From Candidatus Zixiibacteriota bacterium (GTDB lineage: Bacteria; Zixibacteria; MSB-5A5; WJJR01), in contig JBFMGX010000026.1 of assembly GCA_040752595.1 (NCBI GenBank), positions 1-37,800 of the forward strand: DNA of 37,800 nt, written 5' to 3'. The notes beneath the pieces were generated by a model. The model worked only from the letters and a program-made list of their open reading frames with translations, did no database searches and was not told the origin of the DNA. The first letter of the stretch is position 1, and every line of letters starts with the position of its first letter. Shown one piece after another: positions 24,121 through 37,800 of this stretch. A program made the translations under genes and the position numbers.

Positions 24121-26223
24121 TCATGGCCTGACCCGCACCGGGAGGATCATCGCATAGAGACCGGCGGACTGGAGCCGCCGCTGCAGTTGGCGCGCCGTCT
24201 CGTTATGCAATAGTCGCTGGTACCAACGCTCTTCGGCAAAGACGAGCTTGCCGGCGAAGAACACCGATTTTGGGTACTCCTTGGCGATCGTGAGGCACGC
24301 CTCCTCGGCGGCGGCAACCGCCTCGGTGCCGACGGCGACCCGATAGTCTGCGGCCAGACCGAAACCGCGGGCCAGCGCCACGTACTGCCGCAGGGTGCTC
24401 TCGGTATGAGTCTGAACCTGCTCCACGGCGTCAGCGCCCTTGAAACTGGCTGAGTCAATGACGCCCACTGAGATGAATATGAGATTGTGGAAGTGGTCGC
24501 CGAACTGGTGCCGGATCGACAGAAGCGAATGAACCCCCAATCCGGCATACGAGCCCACCAGCAGGACGGCCGTGGGGGCGGTTGGATCCAGCGCCGGGAT
24601 TGGCCGGTCTGAGGCCGTGGGAACATCCTGCAGGACGTCGTCTAAGACCTTCAACTGCCGTCCCACCTTCGCATAGTGCCGACGCACCAGCGCACACACG
24701 CCGATCAGCGCGATCGTCAGGACCAGTGTGACCCAACCCCCTTCACCGAACTTCTCATAGATCGTGATGCTGAGAATCGACACGCACAGAATCAGGCCGA
24801 TCACGTGGATGCTGATGTGCTTCTTCCAGCGGGCATGACGGGCCCGGTCACGTATCCAGAACCGGCACATCGACAGTTCGGTCAGCGAGAAGGTCAGAAA
24901 GACATTGATGGAATACATGACGACCAGATGCGTGACGCTGCCGCCGGTGTAGAGGAGCGTCAACGCCGAGGTGATGCCCATCAGCAGGATGCCGTTCTGC
25001 ATCGTCAGACGGTCGGACAACTGCGAGAAGCGGTGCGGGAGCCAGGAGTCATGCGCCATGTTGGCCATGACCCGGGGGCCGTCGATCACTCCCGCTTGGG
25101 CGGCGACGAACAACAGCATCGCTTCGGAGAATAAGGTGATCGTCACAAACGCGGTGGCCGCCCAAGGGCCGAGCCACCCCAGTGACTCCACAAACCGGCC
25201 GGCCAGCACGGCGTTCATCGTCTTCCCGGCGGCGGGCACGGCACCGGCCAGGAGGTAGGCGACGATCAAGCCGCTGGCCGTCGCCGCCAGCGACGCGGCC
25301 ATCAGGACCATCGTGCGCTTGCCGGTCTCGACCCGCGGCTCGCGCATGATCATGAGACCGTTGGACACTGCCTCAATGCCGGTGTAGGTTCCTCCCCCCA
25401 TCGAGTAGGCGCGGAGAAACAGGGCGATCATACCGGCCAGCCCCAGTCCCACCGGCGGGGCTTGCAGTCCCTGTGTGAAACCGTGATGGATCTCGGTGAC
25501 GACAGCGGGAATTTCGTGCGCGCGGCTGACAATGACGCCCAGGATCAAGATCGCATGGGTGACGAGAAAGGTGATGAAGATCGGCGCCAGAATGGTCACC
25601 GACTCCCGGACCCCGCGCAGGTTGAGCGTCACGAGAACGGCAATGCCGGCGAATTCCACCAACAGCTTCGCCGGGATCAGTCCGAATATGAGCAGACTCT
25701 GCCAGTGGAGCGGCAGGAAGCTGAAGACGGCGTCGGCTCCGGCCGCGATGGAAATCGATATCGTTAGAACATAGTCAACCAGCAGCGCGGCCCCGGAGAC
25801 GACTCCAGCCTTCGGCCCGAGGACGCTGGTGGAGACAACGTACCCGCCGCCACCGAACGGAAAGTGCTCGATGATCCGGCTGTAGGCGTAGGCGATGACG
25901 CTGACGGTGAATGCTGTGGCCACAGCCAGGAGAATGGCCAGATAGGTGTGGGATCCCAGCGCCTTGAACGCCTCCTCGGGACCGTAGGCCGAAGAGGACA
26001 GGCCGTCCGCGCCCAGGCCCACCCACGCCAAGAGGGCGACCAGTGAGACCTTATGGAAGACACCCGGCTCGCTCAGCTTGCGCTTGCCGCCGATCAGGAC
26101 ACGTCGGAGAAACGCACCAACGTGCCATGTGCGTTGTGGCGATCCAGGTGGAACGTTGCTGTTGCTGTCCGGCGAACCACCAGATGAGCCGGCATGCTCG
26201 TCGAGCCGTCGAGGCCCGGACAT
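24121..26223 (-). CDS. APC-superfamily permease with soluble C-terminal domain, possibly KimA-like
   Basis: 700 residues from the ATG at 26223, which has GGAGAGGAG upstream; 40 earlier in-frame codons are Arg-rich and unlikely. About twelve membrane segments run from residue 60 to 520. The first carries GLGADGLSSSAYGPEEAF, close to the signature of KimA/YdaO-type potassium-proton symporters of the APC superfamily; FPFGGGGYVVST and SMGGGTYTGIEAVSNG are further substrate-site motifs. The last 160 residues form a cytoplasmic alpha/beta domain (TAVLLVGSYAGLGVHSLLSI) resembling universal-stress-type folds. Potassium is a plausible substrate; amino-acid transport cannot be excluded. It is codirectional with the T6SS but has no evident functional link. 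Confidence 0.85.
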   Translation of the reverse strand: MSGPRRLDEHAGSSGGSPDSNSNVPPGSPQRTWHVGAFLRRVLIGGKRKLSEPGVFHKVSLVALLAWVGLGADGLSSSAYGPEEAFKALGSHTYLAILLAVATAFTVSVIAYAYSRIIEHFPFGGGGYVVSTSVLGPKAGVVSGAALLVDYVLTISISIAAGADAVFSFLPLHWQSLLIFGLIPAKLLVEFAGIAVLVTLNLRGVRESVTILAPIFITFLVTHAILILGVIVSRAHEIPAVVTEIHHGFTQGLQAPPVGLGLAGMIALFLRAYSMGGGTYTGIEAVSNGLMIMREPRVETGKRTMVLMAASLAATASGLIVAYLLAGAVPAAGKTMNAVLAGRFVESLGWLGPWAATAFVTITLFSEAMLLFVAAQAGVIDGPRVMANMAHDSWLPHRFSQLSDRLTMQNGILLMGITSALTLLYTGGSVTHLVVMYSINVFLTFSLTELSMCRFWIRDRARHARWKKHISIHVIGLILCVSILSITIYEKFGEGGWVTLVLTIALIGVCALVRRHYAKVGRQLKVLDDVLQDVPTASDRPIPALDPTAPTAVLLVGSYAGLGVHSLLSIRHQFGDHFHNLIFISVGVIDSASFKGADAVEQVQTHTESTLRQYVALARGFGLAADYRVAVGTEAVAAAEEACLTIAKEYPKSVFFAGKLVFAEERWYQRLLHNETARQLQRRLQSAGLYAMILPVRVRP

Positions 26224-26330
26224 CGCTGTCTCCTCTCCGGCCTGCGAGGTTAGCTGACGGGCTGGGATGGAAGAGACGTGCTCACCCCGCGCGAGATCGC
26301 GCTTCGCCCCGGAATCTCGGGTCCCCCGCT

Positions 26331-26348
26331 CCCACATGGGCATGTGGG
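26331..26348. promoter_or_regulatory. Perfect palindrome CCCACATG-GG-CATGTGGG, possible operator
   Basis: Eight-base arms with two central bases, about 110 bases upstream of the permease start in a gap with no gene. Size and symmetry suit a dimeric repressor site. It could also be chance or an RNA hairpin. No regulator gene adjoins it. Confidence 0.3.
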
Positions 26349-26550
26349 ATTCGGCCGCATGTAACTACGCGCCCTGAGAGCCAACTGCAAGCGCGAATTG
26401 GCCCGGTCACGCCACCGGTGGGTGCCGGAGGACGATCCGATACGCGGTAGTTCGTTGCCGGATAATGGATTGCGTCTTCAGAGACGCGGCGACCAAGTGG
26501 ATTCTGGGCCGCGGTCAGAGGGGAAGAAAACGGCACCGACTGGTGGCAAG

Positions 26551-26597
26551 TACGCCCATGAGGAGTTGAACCCCCAACCTTCTGATCCGTAGTTTGA
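26551..26597 (-). pseudogene. 3' half of a tRNA-Arg(ACG) gene, probable attachment-site remnant
   Basis: Read on the minus strand, CTACGGA (26586-26592) is the anticodon loop with ACG. It is followed by TCAGAAGG, a T-arm GGGGG-TTCAACT-CCTCA and an acceptor-like TGGGCGTA. The T-arm has one mismatch and one G-T pair. The 5' anticodon stem is decayed (TCAAA against TCAGA), and no D-arm or matching 5' acceptor strand is present upstream, so it cannot be a working tRNA. Retention of only the part from the anticodon loop to the 3' end is the classic trace of tyrosine-integrase insertion. A 13-base palindrome ATTGTGCCACAAT lies at 26608-26620. The rest of the 26224-26702 gap shows only a small hairpin at 26472-26487. 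Confidence 0.65.
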
Positions 26598-26702
26598 CGA
26601 TCTGCTTATTGTGCCACAATGAGTTACAAGAGTGGATTCTCGATGTTTTTTTCAAATCAGAAGGTCTTTACCTCGCAAGAAAGAGATAAGTCTCGAGCTT
26701 TT

Positions 26703-28940
26703 TCACTGGTCACCGAGAGCTTTGTCCAGTGCTGCCGGTTCTGTGAGCGGCTGCTGACATGCGAAATCTCTGCAAACATACACAGTCGCCTTACCCGAAA
26801 TACTCACGAGTGGCCTAGTATACTCAGCGAGCTCTGGGAGGACGGACCCCGGTTCCGAATCCGGTTTTAACAACAGAACTTCTCTTGGTCGGAATTTACT
26901 CCGGACGGTCCAGAGCATTCGTTTGGTGTCGGCTGCATCCGGATCTCCACACACCACGATTTCAGCTGACGGCCCGTGAACAAAGTCGACAGCTTGCATC
27001 ATCTGGCAGTGTGATGCAGGATGACTCCAGATTTCTGCGGAAAACGCGCGTCCGATGCGGACGGCCAAGTCTTCGAACTCTGTCTTGCCGGTCGCTCTGG
27101 CTATTCGCACAAGGTTCAGCATCGCCACGGAGTTGCCCGACGGCAGCGCGCCATCATACGACTCTTTTACACGTGTAAGCAGTTTCTCGCTTGAGTGGGA
27201 GGTGAAATAAAAGCCTCCACCTTTGTCATCCCAGAAGTCTCTGAACATTTGCCCGGTGAGCTCGACAGCAGCCTTCAGAAAACGGACATCGAATCCTGCT
27301 TCGTACAGTTCCAAGAGTCCCCAGATTAGGAAGGCATAATCGTCGAGATTCGCATCAATCGACGCCTCACCGGACCGGTATCGATGGACAAGTCGACCGT
27401 CACGAGTCCTCAGGGAGTCCAAGATGAAGGAAGCGGCAGTTGATGCTGCTTTCACGTACGATGAATCGTCCAATACCTGGGCCGCCTTCGAGTAGGCGGC
27501 GATCATCAGCCCGTTCCAGTCTGTCAGAACCTTGTCGTCCTTGTGTGGATGAATCCGCTTATCACGCGCCGCAAACAATCGCTCGCGGATTGACTCCAGC
27601 TGCTCGCGGACATCCCGCGCGCTGATATTCAAGTCGGCTGCAAGCTCGGATATAGATTCTTTCAGATGGGGAATGTTCGCGCCCGTTGACCGCCGCGTAC
27701 CGGGCTCAGAGAAGTTTCCGTTAGCGGTCAGGTTGTAAGCCCGAATAAACAAATCGGCGTCGGCGGAATCCAGAATCGACCGGACCTCGGAAATGGTCCA
27801 GAGATAGAATTTCCCCTCTTCGCCTTCGCTGTCGGCGTCCTCAGCGGACCAATAGGCCCCTTGGGGAGAGGTCATGTCTCTCGATACGTAGCCCAAGATT
27901 TCACGGACAGTCTGCGCATATTCGTCCTTTCTGGTCGCCTGATAGGCTTCGGCATAAGCGATTGCCAGGAGGGCCTGGTCATAGAGCATCTTTTCAAAAT
28001 GCGGGACCAGCCAGTTGGCGTCCGTCGAGTACCTATGAAAGCCGAAACCGATGTGATCGTAAATGCCGCCTTCACGCATGGCGGCGAGCGTCTTCTCGAC
28101 CATCATCAACGACGAGGAGTCATTCGTTCGGTTCCAATGCCGCAAGAGCAGAGTGAGATTGTGAGGAATCGGAAACTTCGGAGCGCTCCCGAATCCGCCA
28201 TGATCGGAGTCGAATCGAGCTGACAACTGGTACTTTGCAGAATGAATGGTTGTAAGGTCGGGGTCATTGCCGGATTCCGTGGACACGTCCCGGCTCAGCG
28301 CCTGAGCGACACGTTCCGCCGACTGCAGTGCCTCCGTGCGTCTGTTTCTCCATAAATCGGTGACCTTCGGGATCAATTCCAGCATGCCCGTTCTCCCATA
28401 TCGATTGTCCTTGGGGATGTATGTCGCGGCGAAGAAGGGCTTCTTGTCAGGTGTCATGATGATTGTAAGCGGCCACCCACCACTGCCAGTCATCATCTGG
28501 CAGGCGGCCATATACACATTGTCGATGTCGGGGCGCTCCTCGCGGTCAACTTTGATAGACACAAACGCCTCGTTCATCAGACGGGCGACCAGTGTGTCTT
28601 CAAATGACTCCTCTTCCATCACGTGACACCAGTGGCAGGTCGAGTATCCGATTGAGAGCAAGACCGGCTTGCCCTCGCGTCGGGCTCGTTCAAATGCTTC
28701 CTCTCCCCACGGATACCAATCCACCGGATTGTTCGCGTGCTGCAACAAGTAGGGACTCTGCTCCTTACTCAAACGGTTTCCCTGGCCAGAAGAGGCCGAA
28801 AGGAGGGGGCAGAAGGAGTGACCGGAATCATCAAGGTCGCACATGTTGACTCGCATCAAGAATGCGTCTCCCCAAAACACAAACGCTGCGAGGACGACTG
28901 CGACAGTTCCCAGGATTGCACTTTTCAACAGCGTTGACAT
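26703..28940 (-). CDS. DUF255 (YyaL/SSP411-type) thioredoxin-fold protein with N-terminal anchor
   Basis: 745 residues. Residues about 8-26 form a membrane segment or uncleaved signal. The DUF255 domain follows with [29 protein letters not shown] and the active-site-like CHWC at 102-105 ([18 protein letters not shown]), then VKVDREE-like [12 protein letters not shown] and [19 protein letters not shown]. The rest is an alpha/alpha-barrel with [20 protein letters not shown] and [15 protein letters not shown]. The family is widespread but its reaction is unsettled; thiol-redox and sugar-epimerase-like roles have been proposed. It is 40 bases downstream of the TolC-like gene, the last gene of the efflux operon. 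A membrane anchor, with extra cysteines C34 and C44, hints at a periplasmic location, unlike most cytoplasmic members. Confidence 0.93.
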
Positions 28941-28980
28941 TAGAGCGATGTGGCCATTCTAAAATTGGGAGTTGGCTTCT

Positions 28981-30330
28981 CTATCTCGAGGTGGTTGCCG
29001 ATCCAATATCACCCAGAAGAGCAAGGACTTCCATCTGAGCGAGATTGTAACTTACTACGGCCTGTGCGTGTTCCCGCTCTGCGCGCGCGAGCGCCTCGGC
29101 TGCGTCGATGACTTCGAGTGCCATGCCGACGCCGGTCGTTCGCCGCGTGATCGCCACTTCAAGTGCCTTCCGGGCATCATCGAGGCCGCCTGCGGCCGTG
29201 GAGACCGAGCGCCCTCGGACGCTGATCGCCTCGTGCCACATCGTGGCCTTACTCATAATATCCGCACGAACTCCCTCAAGCCGAGTGTTGGCGAAATCGG
29301 CGCGAGCGGACAGTGAACGAATCCTGCCCAGATCGAAGAGACCACCGGGTCCAATTGTCCAGCGGACCGCTACTGAATAATCCCGCGACCGGCGCAAATC
29401 ATTTAGGTCCGGCCCGAAACCTGTGACCAACGCTCCGGCCTCAAAATCGGGGAGCAACGGACCCCAGATGGCTCGTCGCGCTTCCCATCGAGAAGCAGCC
29501 AACTCAGCGATCTGCATCGCAATACCCGGGTGGCTTTGGTCTGCACGGTCCAGCCACGACTGCAGCGACTCTGTGCTATCGACAGTTTCAATGACGAGAA
29601 GTACCGTATCAATCGGTGTCAGTCGAATTGGCTGATCCATGTTCAAAAGAGAAGCCAGTCGTGCCGATGCGGCTGCCTCCCGCTCGACCGCTTGATCAAG
29701 AAGGAGAAGATCGTGCCGCAATTGAGTGCGATCGCGCAACAAGTCAAGCTCGGCGGCAATTCCTTGCTCAACGCTTCGTCGGGATTGCTCGACGAGATCC
29801 TCAGATACCTTGGCGGCGCGACCCGCGATGCGATGGTACTCAGATGACTGCACCAGGTCCCAGTAGGCCCGGGCAACATCAAGCATGGTGGAAAGCGACT
29901 TGTCCTTAAGGTCAGACTCCGCCGCGTTTCGCCTTTGGTGAGCCGAGAGCGTCGAGAACAGGGCGCTGCTGAAGTCCCATCTAGCTGCTATAAGGCCGCC
30001 CACGCGCTGAGATTGCTTATCAACATCGAGAAACTCACCCTGAGTTGCCTGAGTCCGACCTTCGTGGCGTTGTAATTGCCACCCGGCTGAAACAGACGGC
30101 AGGAATCGCTCATAGGTCGAAAGGAGTTCTCCCGACGCTGCCCGAGCGGTTGCCTCTGCCGCTGCTACCCGTGGGCTTTGCTCTCCGGCGAGTCGGAGCG
30201 CCGTGGTCAAATCTATGGGTAGTACAGGAAGTCCAACCTCGGTCTGCGCATGTGCAGAAAGCGCGGCGAACGCGACGAACATCACTGCAACCACCAAACG
30301 GGCCGGTCGCCATGAAGTCGGCATCTGCAC
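28981..30330 (-). CDS. TolC-family outer-membrane efflux channel
   Basis: 449 residues. A signal peptide ends near residue 29 (VVAVMFVAFAALSAHAQ). Two OEP repeats of long helices are visible, with LTTALRLAGEQSPRVAAAEA near the start, ARAYWDLVQSSEYHRIAGRA in the first half, and RALAKARAD-like SLSARADFANTRLEGVRADI and VVSYNLAQMEVLALLG in the second. TolC trimers form the outer-membrane duct of tripartite pumps. The gene begins 20 bases after the adaptor gene, so the three pump parts are made together. Confidence 0.9.
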   Translation of the reverse strand: MQMPTSWRPARLVVAVMFVAFAALSAHAQTEVGLPVLPIDLTTALRLAGEQSPRVAAAEATARAASGELLSTYERFLPSVSAGWQLQRHEGRTQATQGEFLDVDKQSQRVGGLIAARWDFSSALFSTLSAHQRRNAAESDLKDKSLSTMLDVARAYWDLVQSSEYHRIAGRAAKVSEDLVEQSRRSVEQGIAAELDLLRDRTQLRHDLLLLDQAVEREAAASARLASLLNMDQPIRLTPIDTVLLVIETVDSTESLQSWLDRADQSHPGIAMQIAELAASRWEARRAIWGPLLPDFEAGALVTGFGPDLNDLRRSRDYSVAVRWTIGPGGLFDLGRIRSLSARADFANTRLEGVRADIMSKATMWHEAISVRGRSVSTAAGGLDDARKALEVAITRRTTGVGMALEVIDAAEALARAEREHAQAVVSYNLAQMEVLALLGDIGSATTSR

Positions 30331-30350
30331 TCTTGTTCCCGGTCGGATGC

Positions 30351-31430
30351 TCAGTTCGCGGCTCCTGTGTTCTCCACAATGGAAACGGCGATCCCCTCCC
30401 GAAGCCGGTCGCGCCCTTGGGTGACAACTAATTCATTCCCCGCCAAACCCCCGGTGATTTCCGAGTTTATCCCGTCGTCGTTGCCGACCACCACGGGCAC
30501 GCGAGCTGCCCTTCCATCAGTCACAATCCAGACATAGGATTGCTCTTTGGTGACTTCAATGGCGCTGCTCGGCACGAGCAAAGCGTCAGGGCGTTCCTCG
30601 AGGGTTATTTCGACGCTAGCATACATGCCCGCGAGCAGCCGTCGGTCGGAATTCCCCAAATCGATCTCCGCCGTCATCGTCCGTGTCATCGGATCGATCG
30701 CCCATGAGTACCTTGCCACACGCCCTTCGATTGACTCATCTGAGAAATCGGGCACGCGGACTGATGCCGTCTGTCCCTGCCGGACATAGTGAGCGTCACG
30801 CTCTGGTACTTCCACAACGACTCGCAGACTGTCAATACGCATCATCCGTACAATTCTCGCCGTCGGGGCTTGCGATGACGTGGCGATTTGGATGAGCGCT
30901 CCCGGATCGACCCAGCGCTGCGTGACGACTCCCGCGAAAGGGGCACGGATTTCAGAGTACGAGCACAGTTGCTCCAATCGTCCTTGCGCAGCGACGGCGG
31001 CCTCGTGTTCGCCCTTAGCTCGATCAAGGTCCAACTGCCTCACCATGTCGGGGTTCTGTTCGCGTGTCGCCTCCAAGCGATCGTAAACGAGTTTCTTGGC
31101 CCGTGATTCTGCGGTCACGCGTTCGAGTTCACGCTCGGTCTCCGGGTCACTCACCCGGGCCAGAAGTTCTCCGGGCTTGACCCAACTCCCGCGATCGACC
31201 CCGATCCAATCCAGATAACCGCCAACCTTGGAGTAGACGATGACATCTTCCCAGGGCTCGATGTGCCCGACGATCTTGGTGGACTGACGGATGTTCTCAC
31301 GATTCGGAGCAGAAGTGGCTACCGTGACGACATTCTCCTTGGCCACATCCCCCGTAGCGCGGCCGCATCCGTGGCTCGTGACAGAGAGCGCGGCGATCAG
31401 AATCGCGAGTATTTTCGGCGGGGCTTTCAT
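30351..31430 (-). CDS. RND efflux periplasmic adaptor (membrane fusion protein)
   Basis: 359 residues from the ATG at 31430 (MKAPPKILAILIAALSVTSH), which has GGAGGAAG upstream; 26 earlier in-frame codons overlap the pump gene and are rejected. The signal ends TSHGC, a weak lipobox, so it may be a lipoprotein. Domains in order are a first lipoyl half (GYLDWIGVDRGSWVKPGELL), an alpha-hairpin (about 95-140), a second lipoyl half (IRAPFAGVVTQRWVDPGALI), then beta-barrel and membrane-proximal domains (SSAIEVTKEQSYVWIV). It bridges the RND pump and the TolC-like channel. It starts 17 bases after the pump stop. Confidence 0.93.
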   Translation of the reverse strand: MKAPPKILAILIAALSVTSHGCGRATGDVAKENVVTVATSAPNRENIRQSTKIVGHIEPWEDVIVYSKVGGYLDWIGVDRGSWVKPGELLARVSDPETERELERVTAESRAKKLVYDRLEATREQNPDMVRQLDLDRAKGEHEAAVAAQGRLEQLCSYSEIRAPFAGVVTQRWVDPGALIQIATSSQAPTARIVRMMRIDSLRVVVEVPERDAHYVRQGQTASVRVPDFSDESIEGRVARYSWAIDPMTRTMTAEIDLGNSDRRLLAGMYASVEITLEERPDALLVPSSAIEVTKEQSYVWIVTDGRAARVPVVVGNDDGINSEITGGLAGNELVVTQGRDRLREGIAVSIVENTGAAN

Positions 31431-31447
31431 AGTCGAACTTCCTCCAT

Positions 31448-34400
31448 TCAATCTTGCTGGGCCGACTGAGCGATTGCCGGTTGTCGCTTGAGAGTCACAT
31501 AGAGACAAGGGAGCACCAGGAGAATCAGCGCCGCTCCCACAACACCCCCGACAATCGCGCGTGCCAGCGGCATGTTCACCTCTCCTCCCTCTAAACCGAG
31601 AGCCATCGGCAGCAGGGCGAGAAGTGCCGCCGATGAAGTCATGAGAATGGGACGGAGGCGGTCACGCGCGGATTGAATGATCGCCTCCCTGACCATGAGT
31701 CCCTGGCTGACGTGGTGATTGGCGAAATCTACCATGATGATGCTGTACTGGACAACGATCCCCACCATCATGATGATCCCCATGAGCGACTGGATGCTCA
31801 GCGCTGTGCCGGTCACGCCCAGGATCGCTGCGACGCCGATGAATCCGAGTGGAACCGCCAGCATGACGATTAGAGGATCAATGAACGAGCGGAGTTGCGC
31901 CACCATGACCAGATAAACGAGCACAGTGGCGATGAACAAACCAAACCCAAACTGGCGGAAGGCGCTGCGCATGATGTTTGCCTCGCCGCTGGCCGTGAGT
32001 GTATAGCCCTTGCCGGCAAATTCCTTCCCGCCAACTTCCCAATAGTCGCCGCGGTCGGATGTGCGGGCCACCAACCTCAGATCGCTGTTCTTATGCAAGG
32101 CGTCCTCGATCTCCTCGACCAACGATCCCACGGGATATCCCGCTTCTGCAGCGGCGTAGATATCAATCACGCGCGTGATGTTCTGGTGATTGACCTGCGA
32201 AGGGCCGATGCTGCGGTGGAAATCAGCGACATTGCGAAGCAGGACTGGATCCCGGGTTCCGGCACTCGTGAGCGGAATGTCCCTGATGGTCTCAAACGAG
32301 ACCATGTCGCTTTCCTCATACTGAGCGCCCATGAAATAGTGATTGCCGTTGCGCTCATCGATCCAGAACGCGGGTCGAAATCCGACGCTCGAGTTCGTGG
32401 CCGTCACCAGGTTCGTGACGATGCGTTCCACGTCTAGACCTACGAATGCGGCCTTGGTGCGGTCGATCTCGACTTCGAGCGTGGGGTAATCCAGCTTTTG
32501 GGCGATGCGGGCATCGGCCACCCCGGGGATCAGTCGCATCTGGTCGGTGACGATATTGGCGATCCGTGAGGTCGTCTGCAGGTCGCTCCCGGCAACCTGG
32601 AAATGCACTGGGGCGGGTTCACCGAAGTTCAGCGCCGAGGAGACCATGCCCCCCGCATCGAATGCGAATTCGACTCCAGGGTACTTCTTATTCAGGGATT
32701 CTCGCAATTCGGCGATCAACTCGAACGTCGGTCTGTGGCCGCTCTTGCCCTTCAATTGCACAAGGACGAAGGCATCCATCGGGCCGCTGTTCGGCGTGTA
32801 GGCCGCCGGCCAATCCATAAGCACGCCAATGTTCGTGATGAGCATGCGCAAATCGGATTCTGGATGATTCTCGATCTTGGGGTATTCCGGATCGGCTTCG
32901 CCAGTCATGGCGATGATGTCGCCCTCGATCCGGTGCATGACCGACTCAGTCTGCTCGATGCGTGTCCCTGCCGGAAGACGGGCTGTGATCTGAAACTGCT
33001 TAGCATCCACTGGCGGGAAGAGCTCGCGTCCCAGATTGATCAAGACGAAAAGCGCGAGGACAAACGCCAGTGCGGCCCCGGCCAGGATCGCCCAACGCCG
33101 ACGGAGCATCTTGCCGACGAACTGCGCATACCGCTCGGCAAGACGCTGAGTCCAGTCCGAATGTTCGTCTGTTCTGGCGCTTTTTCCACGGGAACCAAGA
33201 AACCTCCAGCAATAGGCCGGAACTGCCACCAAGGCGAAGAAGTAGGAGACGATCACAGCCAGTGTTGCGGCGATTGCCAACGGAGTAAAGAGGAACTTCG
33301 CCACGCCGGTCAGGAACACAATCGGGTAGAAGACCACTACGAACGTGATCGTCGAAACAAGAATCGGCAACCCCACTTCCTTTGCGCCATCGACGGCGGC
33401 CTGGCGCGAAGTTTTGCCCATGCGCAGATGTCGCACGACGTTTTCGAGGATGACAATCGACTGGTCAATAATGATCCCAATCGCCAGTGCCATCCCGCCC
33501 AGCGTCATGGCATTGATCGTCCCTCCGGAGTAGTACAGGCCGATGACGGCCCCGAACACGGCGGTGGGAACGGCCAATCCGACCGCGAGCGCCGAGCGGG
33601 CGCTCCGCAAGAACGCCACAACCACAAGCGCGGCAAGCAGAGCCCCAAGAACTCCGGCCATAACGAGACCTTTGATCGAACTCCGCACATATACTGACTG
33701 ATCGAGAACGACCTCCAGACTGAGATCCTTCGCCTTTGGATTCATTTCCCGGAGTCGTTCGAGAATCTGGCCGGTGTTGCGCTTGATGTCGTCGACGATG
33801 GCAAGGGTGTTCGCTCCCGGCTGGCGGTACACCGGGATATAAACCTGGCGACGGCCATTGACACGGACGATGTTCGTTTGGATCTGATGACTGTCTTTGG
33901 CCTTGGCCACATCACGAAGAAAGACGGGCCTTCCGTCGACGACCTTGATGGGAATGTCGTTCAGATCCTCGACGTGCTCGGGCATCGAATTAGCAAAGAT
34001 CTGATAGTCAATCTCCCCCGCCTTCATATTGCCGGCGGGGATGAGGACATTCTGCCTGCGGAGCGCATCGACAACGTCCATGGGAGAGAGTCCACGCGCC
34101 TCCAGTTTCTCGGGATCGACATATGCAAGGATCCGGCGAAGCACGCCGCCATACACGGCCGGCGCGATCACCCCCCGCACCGACTGTAGACGATTTCTCA
34201 ATTCAAAGTAGGCGATGTCGTAGATTTCCTTCTCCGTCATCGTCGGACTCGACACACTGACCAAACACAGCGGCATCGAGGCGGTCGGATCAAACGGCAT
34301 GACCATCGGCGGAACGGTTCCCGGAGGCAGGTAGTACAAATCAGACATCGCATAAGAGCTCACCTGACTGATTGCTGTCTCAAGCGAGACGTCCTCGTGG

Positions 34401-34684
34401 AAGAAATCCTTGACCACGCAGACGCCGAGCATTGACTTGCCTTCTTGGTGCTCGATCCCGACCGACTGCCCCGTCCAACGCTCCAACCGGCTCATGATGT
34501 CGCGTTCCATGACCTCCGGCGGCATGCCCGGATAGAACGTCAGGATTTGGACCGCTGGGGTCTTGAACTGAGGCAGAAGGTCAATGGGGATACGTCCGAG
34601 CGAAGCCACGCCGATCACGAAGATGGCGAGAACGAGAACAATGAGGAGAAATGGGTTCTCAAGCCCGATTTCGGAGAGTTTCAT
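31448..34684 (-). CDS. RND-family efflux pump permease
   Basis: 1078 residues, first gene of the efflux operon. It begins MKLSEIGLENPFLLIVLVLA with the first membrane segment and has the duplicated RND layout: six segments per half and two large periplasmic loops. FYPGMPPEVMERDI is the usual porter-domain start. Segment 4 reads AIGIIIDQSIVILENVVRHL; AcrB has two aspartates there (D407, D408) for proton relay, whereas here the second is Gln, closer to CusA-type metal pumps that keep only one Asp. This and the sigma/anti-sigma neighbours lean toward metal export, but drug export remains possible. The upstream 265-base gap is shared with the divergent sigma-factor gene. Confidence 0.95.
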   Translation of the reverse strand: MKLSEIGLENPFLLIVLVLAIFVIGVASLGRIPIDLLPQFKTPAVQILTFYPGMPPEVMERDIMSRLERWTGQSVGIEHQEGKSMLGVCVVKDFFHEDVSLETAISQVSSYAMSDLYYLPPGTVPPMVMPFDPTASMPLCLVSVSSPTMTEKEIYDIAYFELRNRLQSVRGVIAPAVYGGVLRRILAYVDPEKLEARGLSPMDVVDALRRQNVLIPAGNMKAGEIDYQIFANSMPEHVEDLNDIPIKVVDGRPVFLRDVAKAKDSHQIQTNIVRVNGRRQVYIPVYRQPGANTLAIVDDIKRNTGQILERLREMNPKAKDLSLEVVLDQSVYVRSSIKGLVMAGVLGALLAALVVVAFLRSARSALAVGLAVPTAVFGAVIGLYYSGGTINAMTLGGMALAIGIIIDQSIVILENVVRHLRMGKTSRQAAVDGAKEVGLPILVSTITFVVVFYPIVFLTGVAKFLFTPLAIAATLAVIVSYFFALVAVPAYCWRFLGSRGKSARTDEHSDWTQRLAERYAQFVGKMLRRRWAILAGAALAFVLALFVLINLGRELFPPVDAKQFQITARLPAGTRIEQTESVMHRIEGDIIAMTGEADPEYPKIENHPESDLRMLITNIGVLMDWPAAYTPNSGPMDAFVLVQLKGKSGHRPTFELIAELRESLNKKYPGVEFAFDAGGMVSSALNFGEPAPVHFQVAGSDLQTTSRIANIVTDQMRLIPGVADARIAQKLDYPTLEVEIDRTKAAFVGLDVERIVTNLVTATNSSVGFRPAFWIDERNGNHYFMGAQYEESDMVSFETIRDIPLTSAGTRDPVLLRNVADFHRSIGPSQVNHQNITRVIDIYAAAEAGYPVGSLVEEIEDALHKNSDLRLVARTSDRGDYWEVGGKEFAGKGYTLTASGEANIMRSAFRQFGFGLFIATVLVYLVMVAQLRSFIDPLIVMLAVPLGFIGVAAILGVTGTALSIQSLMGIIMMVGIVVQYSIIMVDFANHHVSQGLMVREAIIQSARDRLRPILMTSSAALLALLPMALGLEGGEVNMPLARAIVGGVVGAALILLVLPCLYVTLKRQPAIAQSAQQD

Positions 34685-34754
34685 CGTGGAGATTCCATAT
34701 CAATTACTTCAATGCAGTGCACGACCGGATTGCAACAAACGGGTCGATCCCTCG

Positions 34755-34795
34755 TCTATACCCGACTCACGGGCCGTGGGTCAGGATTCAGACCC
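34755..34795 (-). promoter_or_regulatory. Candidate promoter and operator upstream of the RND operon
   Basis: On the minus strand CTGACC (34779-34784) and TATAGA (34755-34760) are 18 bases apart, each matching four of six sigma70 consensus bases. The -35-like box lies within an 18-base imperfect palindrome GGGTC...GACCC (34778-34795). The site is about 70 bases upstream of the pump start. If the divergent ECF sigma drives this operon, the true promoter may look different; no certain ECF-type site was identified in the 34685-34949 gap. Confidence 0.25.
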
Positions 34796-34949
34796 GATAA
34801 TGTCTAAATGTCCTGAGTGCGCCGAAATCATACACCCGGGCCTCGGTAATCTTCGATCGGGGCAATTTTCGCCTTCCTTGTTGTATGAATTCGCAGGCAT
34901 GAGAACATATAGATAGGTGAAGGGGTTCACGAACCAGGACCCATAGGTT

Positions 34950-35564
34950 ATGTGGCCACAGAGGAATGACAGACAGAAGCGATTCATGGCCCAGCTTGAG
35001 GAAGTCCGGCCACAATTGGTGCCGTTTTGCCGGCATTCCCTATACGATCGTGGCAGTCTCGAAGATGTGTTGCAGACAGTCGTGCTTATGGCCTACGAAC
35101 GATTCGATGACTTCCGTCACGGGACGAGCTTTCACGCATGGATATTCCGGATCGCGGCCAATGTGGTGCTCAACACAAATCGCCGCCACAGGCGGGAGTC
35201 GGAGCGGATGGCCGATTTGGACGTGGAAGAACTTGACTTGGTTGCCGAACTGCAACGGGAGTACGCCTACGATGAACTTCTACGCGACCCCGGTCGGGTA
35301 CTCGATCACGTTGGCGACGAGCTTTTGGTTGCGATTGGTGAATTGTCTGAACGCGAGCGTAATGTGTTTCTATTGAAATCGATCTGTGAGCTGCCATGCC
35401 GTGAGATAGCCGATCTGCTTCAGATGCCCGTCGGAAGCGTGATGGGGTACCTGGCACGTGCCAGGGGCAAACTCCGATCGGGACTGGCGGAGTACGCAAA
35501 GCACCGCGGCTTTATCAGCGGCGTGATCAGAGAAGAGTCATCCAATGGACTGCCGAACGGTTAG
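34950..35564 (+). CDS. ECF-type sigma-70 family RNA polymerase sigma factor
   Basis: 204 residues from the ATG at 34950; the ATG at 34986 (MAQLEEVRPQ) is an alternative. Region 2 (about 15-80) has DVLQTVVLMAYERFDDFRHG and FHAWIFRIAANVVLNTNRRH. Region 4 (about 125-185) has LSERERNVFLLKSICELPCR, EIADLLQMPVGSVMGYLARA and RGKLR. There is no region 3. It directs RNA polymerase to stress-type promoters. It overlaps the anti-sigma gene by 20 bases and is divergent from the RND operon, so control of that operon and of itself is a natural inference. Confidence 0.93.
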   Translation: MWPQRNDRQKRFMAQLEEVRPQLVPFCRHSLYDRGSLEDVLQTVVLMAYERFDDFRHGTSFHAWIFRIAANVVLNTNRRHRRESERMADLDVEELDLVAELQREYAYDELLRDPGRVLDHVGDELLVAIGELSERERNVFLLKSICELPCREIADLLQMPVGSVMGYLARARGKLRSGLAEYAKHRGFISGVIREESSNGLPNG

Positions 35565-36339
35565 ACGATATCTCGCGATGTATCTCGACTCGGAACTCGG
35601 GCCGGAGACGACCTTTGAGATTTCGAGCCATCTGCAGGAGTGTTCGAATTGCAGACGCGTGGCCGAGCAGGAAGCGCGTCTCGAGAACCGCCTCAGAACT
35701 GCGCTGCGTAAGCCGCGCCCGGAAGACGATGCGATCTGGGAACGATCCATGGCGCGAATCGGCAAGTCGCGCTCGGGGCGCCGAACGCCCATCGTCGGCA
35801 TCGGCGTCACTGCTTTGGCGCTGGCTGCGACAATCGCGCTGCATTTCCTGATCGGGGCACCCTGGTTTCATGACGAACTGGACTTGGCTGAGGTGACTGC
35901 CGCAGAGCACTCGCTCACTCTCAGCTCAGAAGGGGCAGGGTCAGGCGAGGGCCTTGAAGCAGATGAACTCAACGCGTTCTTTCGGCGGGAATTGTCGCCA
36001 GCGTATTGCCTCGAAGTCGACACCGCGATAGGGACGAGGCTGATCGAGGCCGGAATCTGCGAACTGGCGAATGTTCGCACAGCCCATGTTGTTTGCGCTG
36101 ACTCCCAGACCGTTCTTTCATTGTTCTGGCTGCCATCAGAAGCAATTACGGAGTTTCCGGAAACGGCTGAACGGTTCCAGAAGTACGGTTCTTCGTTCCA
36201 TTGCCATGTCGAACCATACGAGTTTTTTGCAAACAAATCGGGCACGGGGATCATTGTTGGAATCGCCAAAACTACGCCGGCCATGCTGGAAAAATTCGTC
36301 CAACGGGCTGCCATGGGAGCCTGTCAGGGCGGGGCATAG
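35545..36339 (+). CDS. Membrane anti-sigma factor with ZAS zinc finger
   Basis: 264 residues. The N-terminus carries the ZAS motif H29-x3-C33-x2-C36 (SSHLQECSNCRRVAE) with C3 as possible fourth ligand; this helix bundle holds the sigma factor in the cytoplasm. One membrane segment lies at about 83-104. The periplasmic part has cysteines at 155, 172, 184, 220 and 260 and a C-terminal stretch FFANKSGTGIIVGIAKTTPA. Start and sigma-gene stop overlap, giving coupled synthesis. Periplasmic cysteines beside an efflux operon suggest metal or redox sensing; that is inference. The gap after it (36340-36519) shows no gene. Confidence 0.88.
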   Translation: MDCRTVRRYLAMYLDSELGPETTFEISSHLQECSNCRRVAEQEARLENRLRTALRKPRPEDDAIWERSMARIGKSRSGRRTPIVGIGVTALALAATIALHFLIGAPWFHDELDLAEVTAAEHSLTLSSEGAGSGEGLEADELNAFFRRELSPAYCLEVDTAIGTRLIEAGICELANVRTAHVVCADSQTVLSLFWLPSEAITEFPETAERFQKYGSSFHCHVEPYEFFANKSGTGIIVGIAKTTPAMLEKFVQRAAMGACQGGA

Positions 36340-36519
36340 ACGATTCGCATAATGCGAAGGAACATCCATCGCTGCCAGCGTGTTGCATCATCAAGCCGAG
36401 AATAGACTGCGACTGGCATGACCCTGACGTCTCGCGCGAATCATCTGTCTCGAACCCCACTGGTAAAGAATGAATTCCCAACCATCTGACCAATTATCAC
36501 GAAATAAGGAGGACTCATT

Positions 36520-36966
36520 ATGAAGACATTTCGCCCGATCATGCCGTCGCTCCTTGCCTTGGCATTACTCGCCGTATCGACGTCGGCCCAGGAGCATCCG
36601 GAGCATCCAAAGAAGCAGACCGCTTCCGCAGCAGTGAGTGAAGCAACTGTCGCGGGCCAAAACGTCTGTCTCGGTTGCTCCCTCAAGAAGGAAAAGGGGG
36701 CCGCCGCGCAATGCAGCAAGTATGGACACCGGCATGTGCTCAAAGTGACCAAGGCCACGATCGATGGAAAGGACCATCCCGAGATGAACGGGTGGGTGTT
36801 ACACTACCTCGACACTGACAGCTCGCAGTCCGTAATCGGAGGACATCACGAGGAAACAGTCACAATGACGGGGAAAATCTATGCCGACGAGCGTGTACTT
36901 GAGGTGACCAAACTGGAGAGCTCCGAAGCGGCCAAGAAACCCGAGCACCCTGAGCACCCGAAATGA
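36520..36966 (+). CDS. Small secreted Cys/His protein, possibly metal-binding
   Basis: 148 residues, with a perfect AAGGAGG (36506-36512) seven bases before the ATG, the strongest ribosome site in the region. The signal peptide is residues 1-24 (LLALALLAVSTSAQ). The mature protein has C50-x2-C53 and C65 followed by KYGHRHVL, then a beta-rich part with HYLDTD and GGHHEETVTMTGKIYAD. The words EHPEHPK occur both right after the signal (25-31) and at the very end (142-148). Similar CLGC...AQCSxYGHxH proteins occur in other bacteria without assigned function. Cys and His content and the efflux context suggest metal binding in the periplasm. Not experimentally known to me. Confidence 0.8.
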   Translation: MKTFRPIMPSLLALALLAVSTSAQEHPEHPKKQTASAAVSEATVAGQNVCLGCSLKKEKGAAAQCSKYGHRHVLKVTKATIDGKDHPEMNGWVLHYLDTDSSQSVIGGHHEETVTMTGKIYADERVLEVTKLESSEAAKKPEHPEHPK

Positions 36967-37027
36967 ACCGGGCAGGTCCTCCCCCCGGCAAATGGATCAA
37001 ATCGACCCGCCCAGAAGAGGGTATTGA

Positions 37028-37684
37028 GTGGTGAAATCAGTCGTACTTGTGGTCCTCCTTTTGGTGACTGCTGCTGGTTATGCGCCTGCGCAGGAACAGA
37101 GTGTGAGCATCCAGCAGATTGCCGCCGCGATCGAGGAGTACATCATCAATAAGTCCGAAGCCGACGGCGGGTATTTCCGGCTCCAACACAATGGAGTGCA
37201 ACTCAAACTCGAGCTGGTGAGAATCCACATGGAGTATCTCGCCGACCTCGGGTGCGGGACACAGTTCGCATGCGTGGATTTGGTGGGCACGGACGGTCCC
37301 GTTTACGATATCGATTTCTTTCTTAAAGGTGGACCAGACGGCATGGCCGTGACGGAAACCACCGTTCACAAAGTCAACGGCCAACCGCTTTACGCGTGGG
37401 AGCAACAGGACGACGGAACATGGGTACGCGTCGCCGTGGCCGACGCATCACCCCGATTGCTCGGAGTGATTCAAGGCGAGGACACATTCGAGTTCATCTA
37501 CCGCGTTCGACTTCCAGACATCACCGGACCTGCAAAACTCTGGTTGCCGCTGGCTCAGACGGACGACCACCAGGCAATTGAAGTCAAGAAGGTCTCTGCT
37601 CCGTCGCAATGGCGTGAACTTAGAGACAGCGGTAACGGAAACACGGTTCTGTTCATGACGGGGCGCAATCCCAAAGTTAGTTGA
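37028..37684 (+). CDS. Secreted protein, apparently truncated before a transglutaminase-type domain
   Basis: 218 residues from the GTG at 37028, with GAGGG upstream and an in-frame stop just before it. The signal peptide is about residues 1-22 (VVLVVLLLVTAAGYAPAQ). Residues 25-130 form a domain (YFRLQHNGVQLKLELVRIHM, GTQFACVDLVGTDGPVYDID, VTETTVHKVNGQPLYAWEQQ) known to me from small exported proteins of unknown role. From about residue 150 (FIYRVRLPDITGPAKLWLPL) it resembles the segment that precedes transglutaminase-like catalytic cores, but the frame stops after TGRNPKVS, before any Cys-His-Asp core. The next 22 bases lead into a minus-strand gene end. It may be a complete short protein, but interruption by an insertion is likely. 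Confidence 0.6.
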   Translation: MVKSVVLVVLLLVTAAGYAPAQEQSVSIQQIAAAIEEYIINKSEADGGYFRLQHNGVQLKLELVRIHMEYLADLGCGTQFACVDLVGTDGPVYDIDFFLKGGPDGMAVTETTVHKVNGQPLYAWEQQDDGTWVRVAVADASPRLLGVIQGEDTFEFIYRVRLPDITGPAKLWLPLAQTDDHQAIEVKKVSAPSQWRELRDSGNGNTVLFMTGRNPKVS

Positions 37685-37706
37685 AGTTTGAACGGCTCAT
37701 TGTTGT

Positions 37707-37800
37707 TTACGCCGCCTTCGACAGGGCGGCACCCTCCAGTTTCAGTTCTCGTTGCAAGGCGTCCCGCAGTGTTCTGAGATGCCGGTATCCGCGCACGGTG
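37707..37800 (-). CDS. 3' end of a gene entering from the right edge, possibly a transposase
   Basis: The minus-strand frame from the edge to a TAA at 37707 encodes 30 residues: TVRGYRHLRTLRDALQRELK and a short Ala-rich end. No stop interrupts it. A basic helical end of this kind is seen in several transposase families, and its position right behind a truncated gene fits an insertion element, but I cannot assign a family from 30 residues. No terminal inverted repeat was identified in 37660-37706. Confidence 0.4.
   Translation of the reverse strand, partial: TVRGYRHLRTLRDALQRELKLEGAALSKAA

Follow-up and report, generated by a model that had tools for sequence, protein, structure and literature searches.

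The window analysed here, 37,800 bases that form the entire contig G000:C26 of a Zixibacteria metagenome assembly, carries at 26548-26666 what is very probably (at a probability of about 0.9) an attR, or distal end, of a small integrative element inserted in a tRNA-Arg(ACG) gene, with the DNA of the element, cargo included, extending to the right. The arrangement is of a known type, the anticodon-loop tRNA island with its classic mechanism, and the element family appears to be undescribed. Crossover in the anticodon loop corresponds to sublocation A of the tRNA islands in the Islander database (PMC4383910); an overlap of 7 bp in this loop is discussed in PMC8371274. No report of such islands in this phylum was found in a brief literature search.

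The displaced tRNA half and the adjoining element end

The site is composed of the following features, all on the minus strand.
26548-26598, minus: tRNA-Arg(ACG) 3' half, comprising the attR core and the 3' part of the tRNA; matches the intact tRNA of genome G002, with exact counterparts at the attR of G001, G002 and G003
26586-26592, minus: CTACGGA, the 7-base anticodon loop and putative crossover (overlap) region; flanked by perfect 10-bp inverted arms in the G001 attR
26593-26597, minus: decayed left core arm TCAAA (TCTGA in the relatives), from the mismatch map and alignment
26608-26620, minus: palindrome ATTGTGGCACAAT, 13 bases, at the element end; conserved in G001, G002 and G003
26651-26666, minus: half-site-like block GACCTTCTGATTTGAA at the element end, at a fixed 58-bp spacing to the palindrome end

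Read from 26598 to 26548, the minus strand gives GTCAAACTACGGATCAGAAGGTTGGGGGTTCAACTCCTCATGGGCGTACTT, which begins at the anticodon stem of tRNA-Arg(ACG) and reaches its acceptor end. The similarity had been noticed in a reading from sequence only, and it holds: 43 of the 46 bases at 26598-26553 are identical to the intact tRNA-Arg(ACG) of G002, the repeat extends to 26548, and BLAST comparisons with the intact tRNAs of relatives gave E-values of 1e-14 to 1e-17. Chance similarity is a negligible explanation, as no point in its support was found and the best other positions in the window match this 3' half at only 25-26 of 46 bases. The same reading stated that the 5' half is missing, and indeed only 9 of the 26 bases in its position match the tRNA, a conserved element end standing there instead; ARAGORN found no tRNA in the whole window, and Rfam returned no tRNA match at the site at E<=1. 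Folded as RNA, the remnant was no more stable than shuffled sequences.

The element end consists of the block GACCTTCTGAYTTGAA followed by the palindrome TTGTG[G/T]CACAA at a constant distance, 58 bases in all, in the window and in G001, G002 and G003. A search of 132 genomes of the class recovered this pattern in four, at one site each and always at an attR, with none in the other 128, and reversed-pattern controls gave no matches in the class genomes. The bases that take the place of the tRNA 5' half are mutually related in the four genomes and unlike tRNA. The outer pair of the palindrome differs between members on both sides at once, from A-T to G-C (CATTGTGGCACAATG in G002, CGTTGTGTCACAACG in G001), as expected of a symmetric binding site. 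The 13-base palindrome that the sequence-only reading placed beside the site is thus real and kept in three relatives (minus strand 26620-26608), with the refinement that it is part of the element end. Of the limits proposed there, 26551-26620, the first falls inside the repeat and the second coincides with the palindrome end, but the full conserved site is wider, at 26548-26666.

In the G001 attR, CTACGGA lies between perfect 10-base arms, AACCTTCTGA and TCAGAAGGTT, and the block GACCTTCTGA repeats the 10-base core arm seen there; the identity between tRNA and attR begins at the anticodon stem in all relatives. The window copy has changed from TCTGA to TCAAA in the left core arm, has lost the outer pair of the palindrome and differs at one T-stem base. 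Because core arm, palindrome and T-stem are mutated, the window site is probably an old copy that is inactive and immobile. Its element end is nonetheless unbroken up to 26670, ~33 bases from the stop codon of the neighbouring DUF255 gene, and inspection by eye for a promoter revealed no convincing hexamers.

Complete elements in related genomes

The site was searched in 58 genomes, and two places on one contig were found in three members of the family: G001, G002 (the same genus as the window genome) and G003 (the same family). In each, 45-46 bases of the 3' half of an intact tRNA-Arg(ACG) are repeated exactly on the same strand, 3107 bp downstream in G003, 4739 bp in G002 and 5209 bp in G001. 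Order and strand at the three loci (L048, L049 and L050) agree with the window, the inserted DNA lying between the tRNA and the 3' fragment. In G002 and G003 a gene for a 308-aa tyrosine integrase (Pfam PF00589) starts 95-96 bp after the tRNA, the two proteins being 78% identical; in G001 this gene is cut by an IS, which leaves the N-terminal 49 aa with an IS transposase adjacent. The proposal that the site marks the boundary of a tyrosine-integrase island with the inserted DNA to its right is therefore supported, as these genomes show the same order and orientation, and G002 shows the integrase together with the same chromosomal flank.

That flank, on the left of the scar, is as follows.
1461-24120, minus: type VI secretion (T6SS) cluster, chromosomal flank, from Pfam matches and collinearity with contig C134 of G002

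Pfam identified VipA, VipB, Hcp, TssF, IcmF, DotU, VasE, VasJ/ImpA, ClpV-like and VgrG-like genes, and the flank is collinear with G002 up to the scar of G002 itself. The exception is an amino-acid-permease-type transporter gene with its riboswitch (24121-26366), which lies between the scar and the T6SS genes in the window and is absent from that place in G002. As separate observations, the type VI secretion cluster of this member of the Zixibacteria looks near-complete, and the riboswitch is a c-di-AMP riboswitch (Rfam RF00379, 78.8 bits) at 26228-26366 on the minus strand, which precedes the transporter gene (24121-26343, minus strand).

The complete elements also bear on whether the scar could be a degenerate whole tRNA pseudogene, left by tandem tRNA gene duplication with no integrase involved. 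Such pseudogenes exist, and half of a tRNA is covered here, but similarity in the 5' half is no better than chance, four genomes have one and the same non-tRNA element end in its stead, and the repeats in the relatives bracket integrase-bearing DNA, so that this origin is very improbable. For the reading as an attR, a mechanism may be proposed in which the 308-aa tyrosine integrase would join the attP of the circular element to the tRNA gene by recombination in the anticodon loop, strand exchange presumably falling in the 7-base overlap CTACGGA between the inverted anticodon-stem arms. With a 3' half supplied by the element itself, the tRNA would be restored upstream, which on the minus strand means to the right, and the original 3' half would end up at 26548-26598, next to the T6SS cluster. 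The element's arm of the site would then be formed by the block and palindrome (26608-26666), where the integrase and an excision or host factor may bind.

The larger ORFs of the G002 element encode the integrase, a MazE-like antitoxin, a ParE-like toxin that scores just under the curated cut-off, and an 861-aa TOTE-type primase-helicase; the G003 element carries the integrase, the same toxin-antitoxin pair and a different 371-aa gene. No relaxase or conjugation genes were seen among the larger ORFs of the G002 element or in the window cargo up to the contig end, and none of the tested element ORFs was a phage gene. Judged by the genes of the G002 element and the visible window cargo, the element would be neither conjugative nor a prophage. 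In G003, past the attR (L050:900-1573), the beginning of the element is repeated together with a second toxin-antitoxin copy, suggesting a second element in tandem whose integrase has been lost (tandem accretion).

The elements resemble the sublocation A islands of Islander (PMC4383910) in the rebuilt tRNA at one end, the displaced 3' fragment at the other, the tyrosine integrase by the tRNA and the orientation rules. They differ in their host, here Zixibacteria, in the size of the complete relatives, only 3-5 kb, and in that the window copy is incomplete and decayed. With ICEKp1 and ICEclc (PMC13023037) they share a tRNA followed by int on one strand with a leader between (~95 bp here), but the elements of G002 and G003, 3-5 kb long, showed no conjugation genes.

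Putative cargo, composition and the missing right end

To the right of the scar, the following features were assigned.
26703-28940, minus: thioredoxin-like DUF255 protein, 745 aa, putative cargo (Pfam PF03190)
28981-34684, minus: RND efflux operon of outer-membrane factor, adaptor and AcrB-type pump, putative cargo, from domain matches; a 70% pump relative lies elsewhere in G002
34950-36339, plus: ECF sigma factor and zinc-finger anti-sigma protein, putative cargo, from domain matches; the same pair adjoins the pump in G002
37660-37800, minus: end of an insertion sequence (IS), 99% match to C34:69-189, with divergence directly after 37660

The change in composition to the right of the site, suggested earlier from short hand-counted stretches, was confirmed over the whole window: GC falls from 63.0% in 1-26500 to 57.1% in 26700-37800, below the 61.2-63.3% of 39 equal-size (11 kb) windows from six other loci of the genome. 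The cargo right of the scar differs completely from that of G002, as the DUF255, efflux and sigma/anti-sigma genes of the window are absent from the G002 element. For the DUF255 protein, same-genus genomes hold only 35-36% paralogues, while relatives of up to 52-59% occur in other genera and families. The DUF255 protein, the efflux operon and the sigma/anti-sigma pair may be regarded as candidate cargo, which would form one unit up to the right end. G002 does not have the efflux operon at the same place without the junction: its related operon, with a 70% identical pump, sits at another locus beside lipid A (lpxC-type) genes. In the window genome the orthologues of these lipid A genes are on G000:C11, where the pump is absent.

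In the assembled DNA the island's right end is not seen, because the contig breaks within an IS and neither an intact tRNA-Arg(ACG) nor an integrase of this family was found elsewhere in the assembly. The IS at 37660-37800 interrupts the ORF at 37028-37684, and the last 53 residues at this end have no Pfam match; its second copy on G000:C34 accounts for the contig break at 37800. A genome-wide scan found 45 tRNAs above the family cut-off in the window's assembly; Arg tRNAs with TCT, CCG and CCT anticodons are among them, whereas an intact tRNA-Arg(ACG) is not. Nor was an integrase of the G002 type found there, the best match (30%) probably being the cell's own Xer enzymes.

Two contigs were considered as the home of the intact tRNA-Arg(ACG) and rejected. 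The genes upstream of the tRNA in G001 map to G000:C28, in which the tRNA scan finds none. A PP2C gene precedes tRNA-Arg in G003, G005 and G006, and G000:C20 carries a PP2C gene 524 bp from the contig end, with no tRNA in those bases; the PP2C clue is only suggestive, as the PP2C contig of G001 differs from its tRNA-Arg contig. In G005 and G006 the contig with tRNA-Arg(ACG) shows no further copy of the 3' half, and something other than the T6SS cluster lies downstream. The nominally complete relative G004 has no match to the tRNA-Arg(ACG) 3' half; there, as in the window genome, the ACG tRNA may be prone to assembly gaps, or diverged.

Three points count against an attR with cargo: the absence of tRNA and integrase from the assembly, the ordinary chromosomal context of the G002 efflux operon, and the permease gene, which G002 lacks at that place. 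Since the operon of G002 sits in ordinary chromosome, that of the window may stem from a later rearrangement onto the element end. More broadly, the site might be a true attR whose first element, integrase and rebuilt tRNA included, underwent a later deletion or rearrangement, the DUF255 and efflux genes having joined secondarily. The lack of both genes in the assembly, the related efflux genes elsewhere in G002, the decayed core arm and the rearrangement potential of the IS at the contig end all fit this account. It is nevertheless rather unlikely, because the unbroken element end reaches almost to the DUF255 stop codon and low GC begins there, and because outright loss of the ACG tRNA would be costly, which makes an assembly gap the more likely reason for its absence. 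An attR with its cargo remains the preferred reading.

An integrase clade with several tRNA targets

The G002 integrase resembles XerC/XerD-like recombinases (Pfam PF00589 and PF02899) in domain layout and length, but it scores 191 and 184 bits, far under the equivalog cut-offs of 335 and 330, and is tRNA-adjacent. Across the class, the genes for its relatives follow a tRNA gene immediately and on the same strand, the tRNAs being Arg(ACG), Thr(CGT), His(GTG), Lys(CTT), Arg(TCT) and Met(CAT). The clade has at least six tRNA targets, which appear to track the branches of the integrase protein tree (18 sequences). No close relatives were found among phages, plasmids and viral contigs, the best phage matches being ~31%. 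In most members 91-99 bases separate the end of the tRNA from the integrase start; the larger values (Lys members and one Met member) were measured to the start of a partial alignment.

Just before the integrase start codon, most members of three branches carry the motif AARRGCNTCTGAY; examples are found at L049:383-478, L050:4514-4607, L048:13990-14084, L127:9205-9297 and L128:8975-9064. In the Arg(ACG) branch the motif equals the D-stem/anticodon-stem stretch AGAGCGTCTGAY of the tRNA. It is identical in Thr and His members despite their different tRNAs, and is thus independent of the target; it might, at a guess, act in self-regulation or as an arm site. Both this motif and the block at the element end look like the half-site of the tRNA core, so that the integrase may use a single binding specificity at the core, at the arms and in repressing itself. 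It is tentatively suggested that a class-wide clade of small Zixibacteria elements with a shared leader layout moves among at least six tRNA targets, possibly by means of such a single specificity. As a further observation, contig ends often fall inside the tRNA or no more than ~1.5 kb from the integrase (G027:C9, G098:C93, G099:C27 and G044:C29), as might be seen if the sampled populations contained both integrated and excised forms.

The finding means that classic tRNA-anchored islands occur in Zixibacteria, a group known chiefly through metagenomes, and exact attL and attR sequences are now given for a compact integrase family. An efflux operon and the primase-helicase of a proposed conflict system are placed among the variable genes at one tRNA site. 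As the leader is constant while the tRNA targets change, target switching of integrases becomes testable in one clade.
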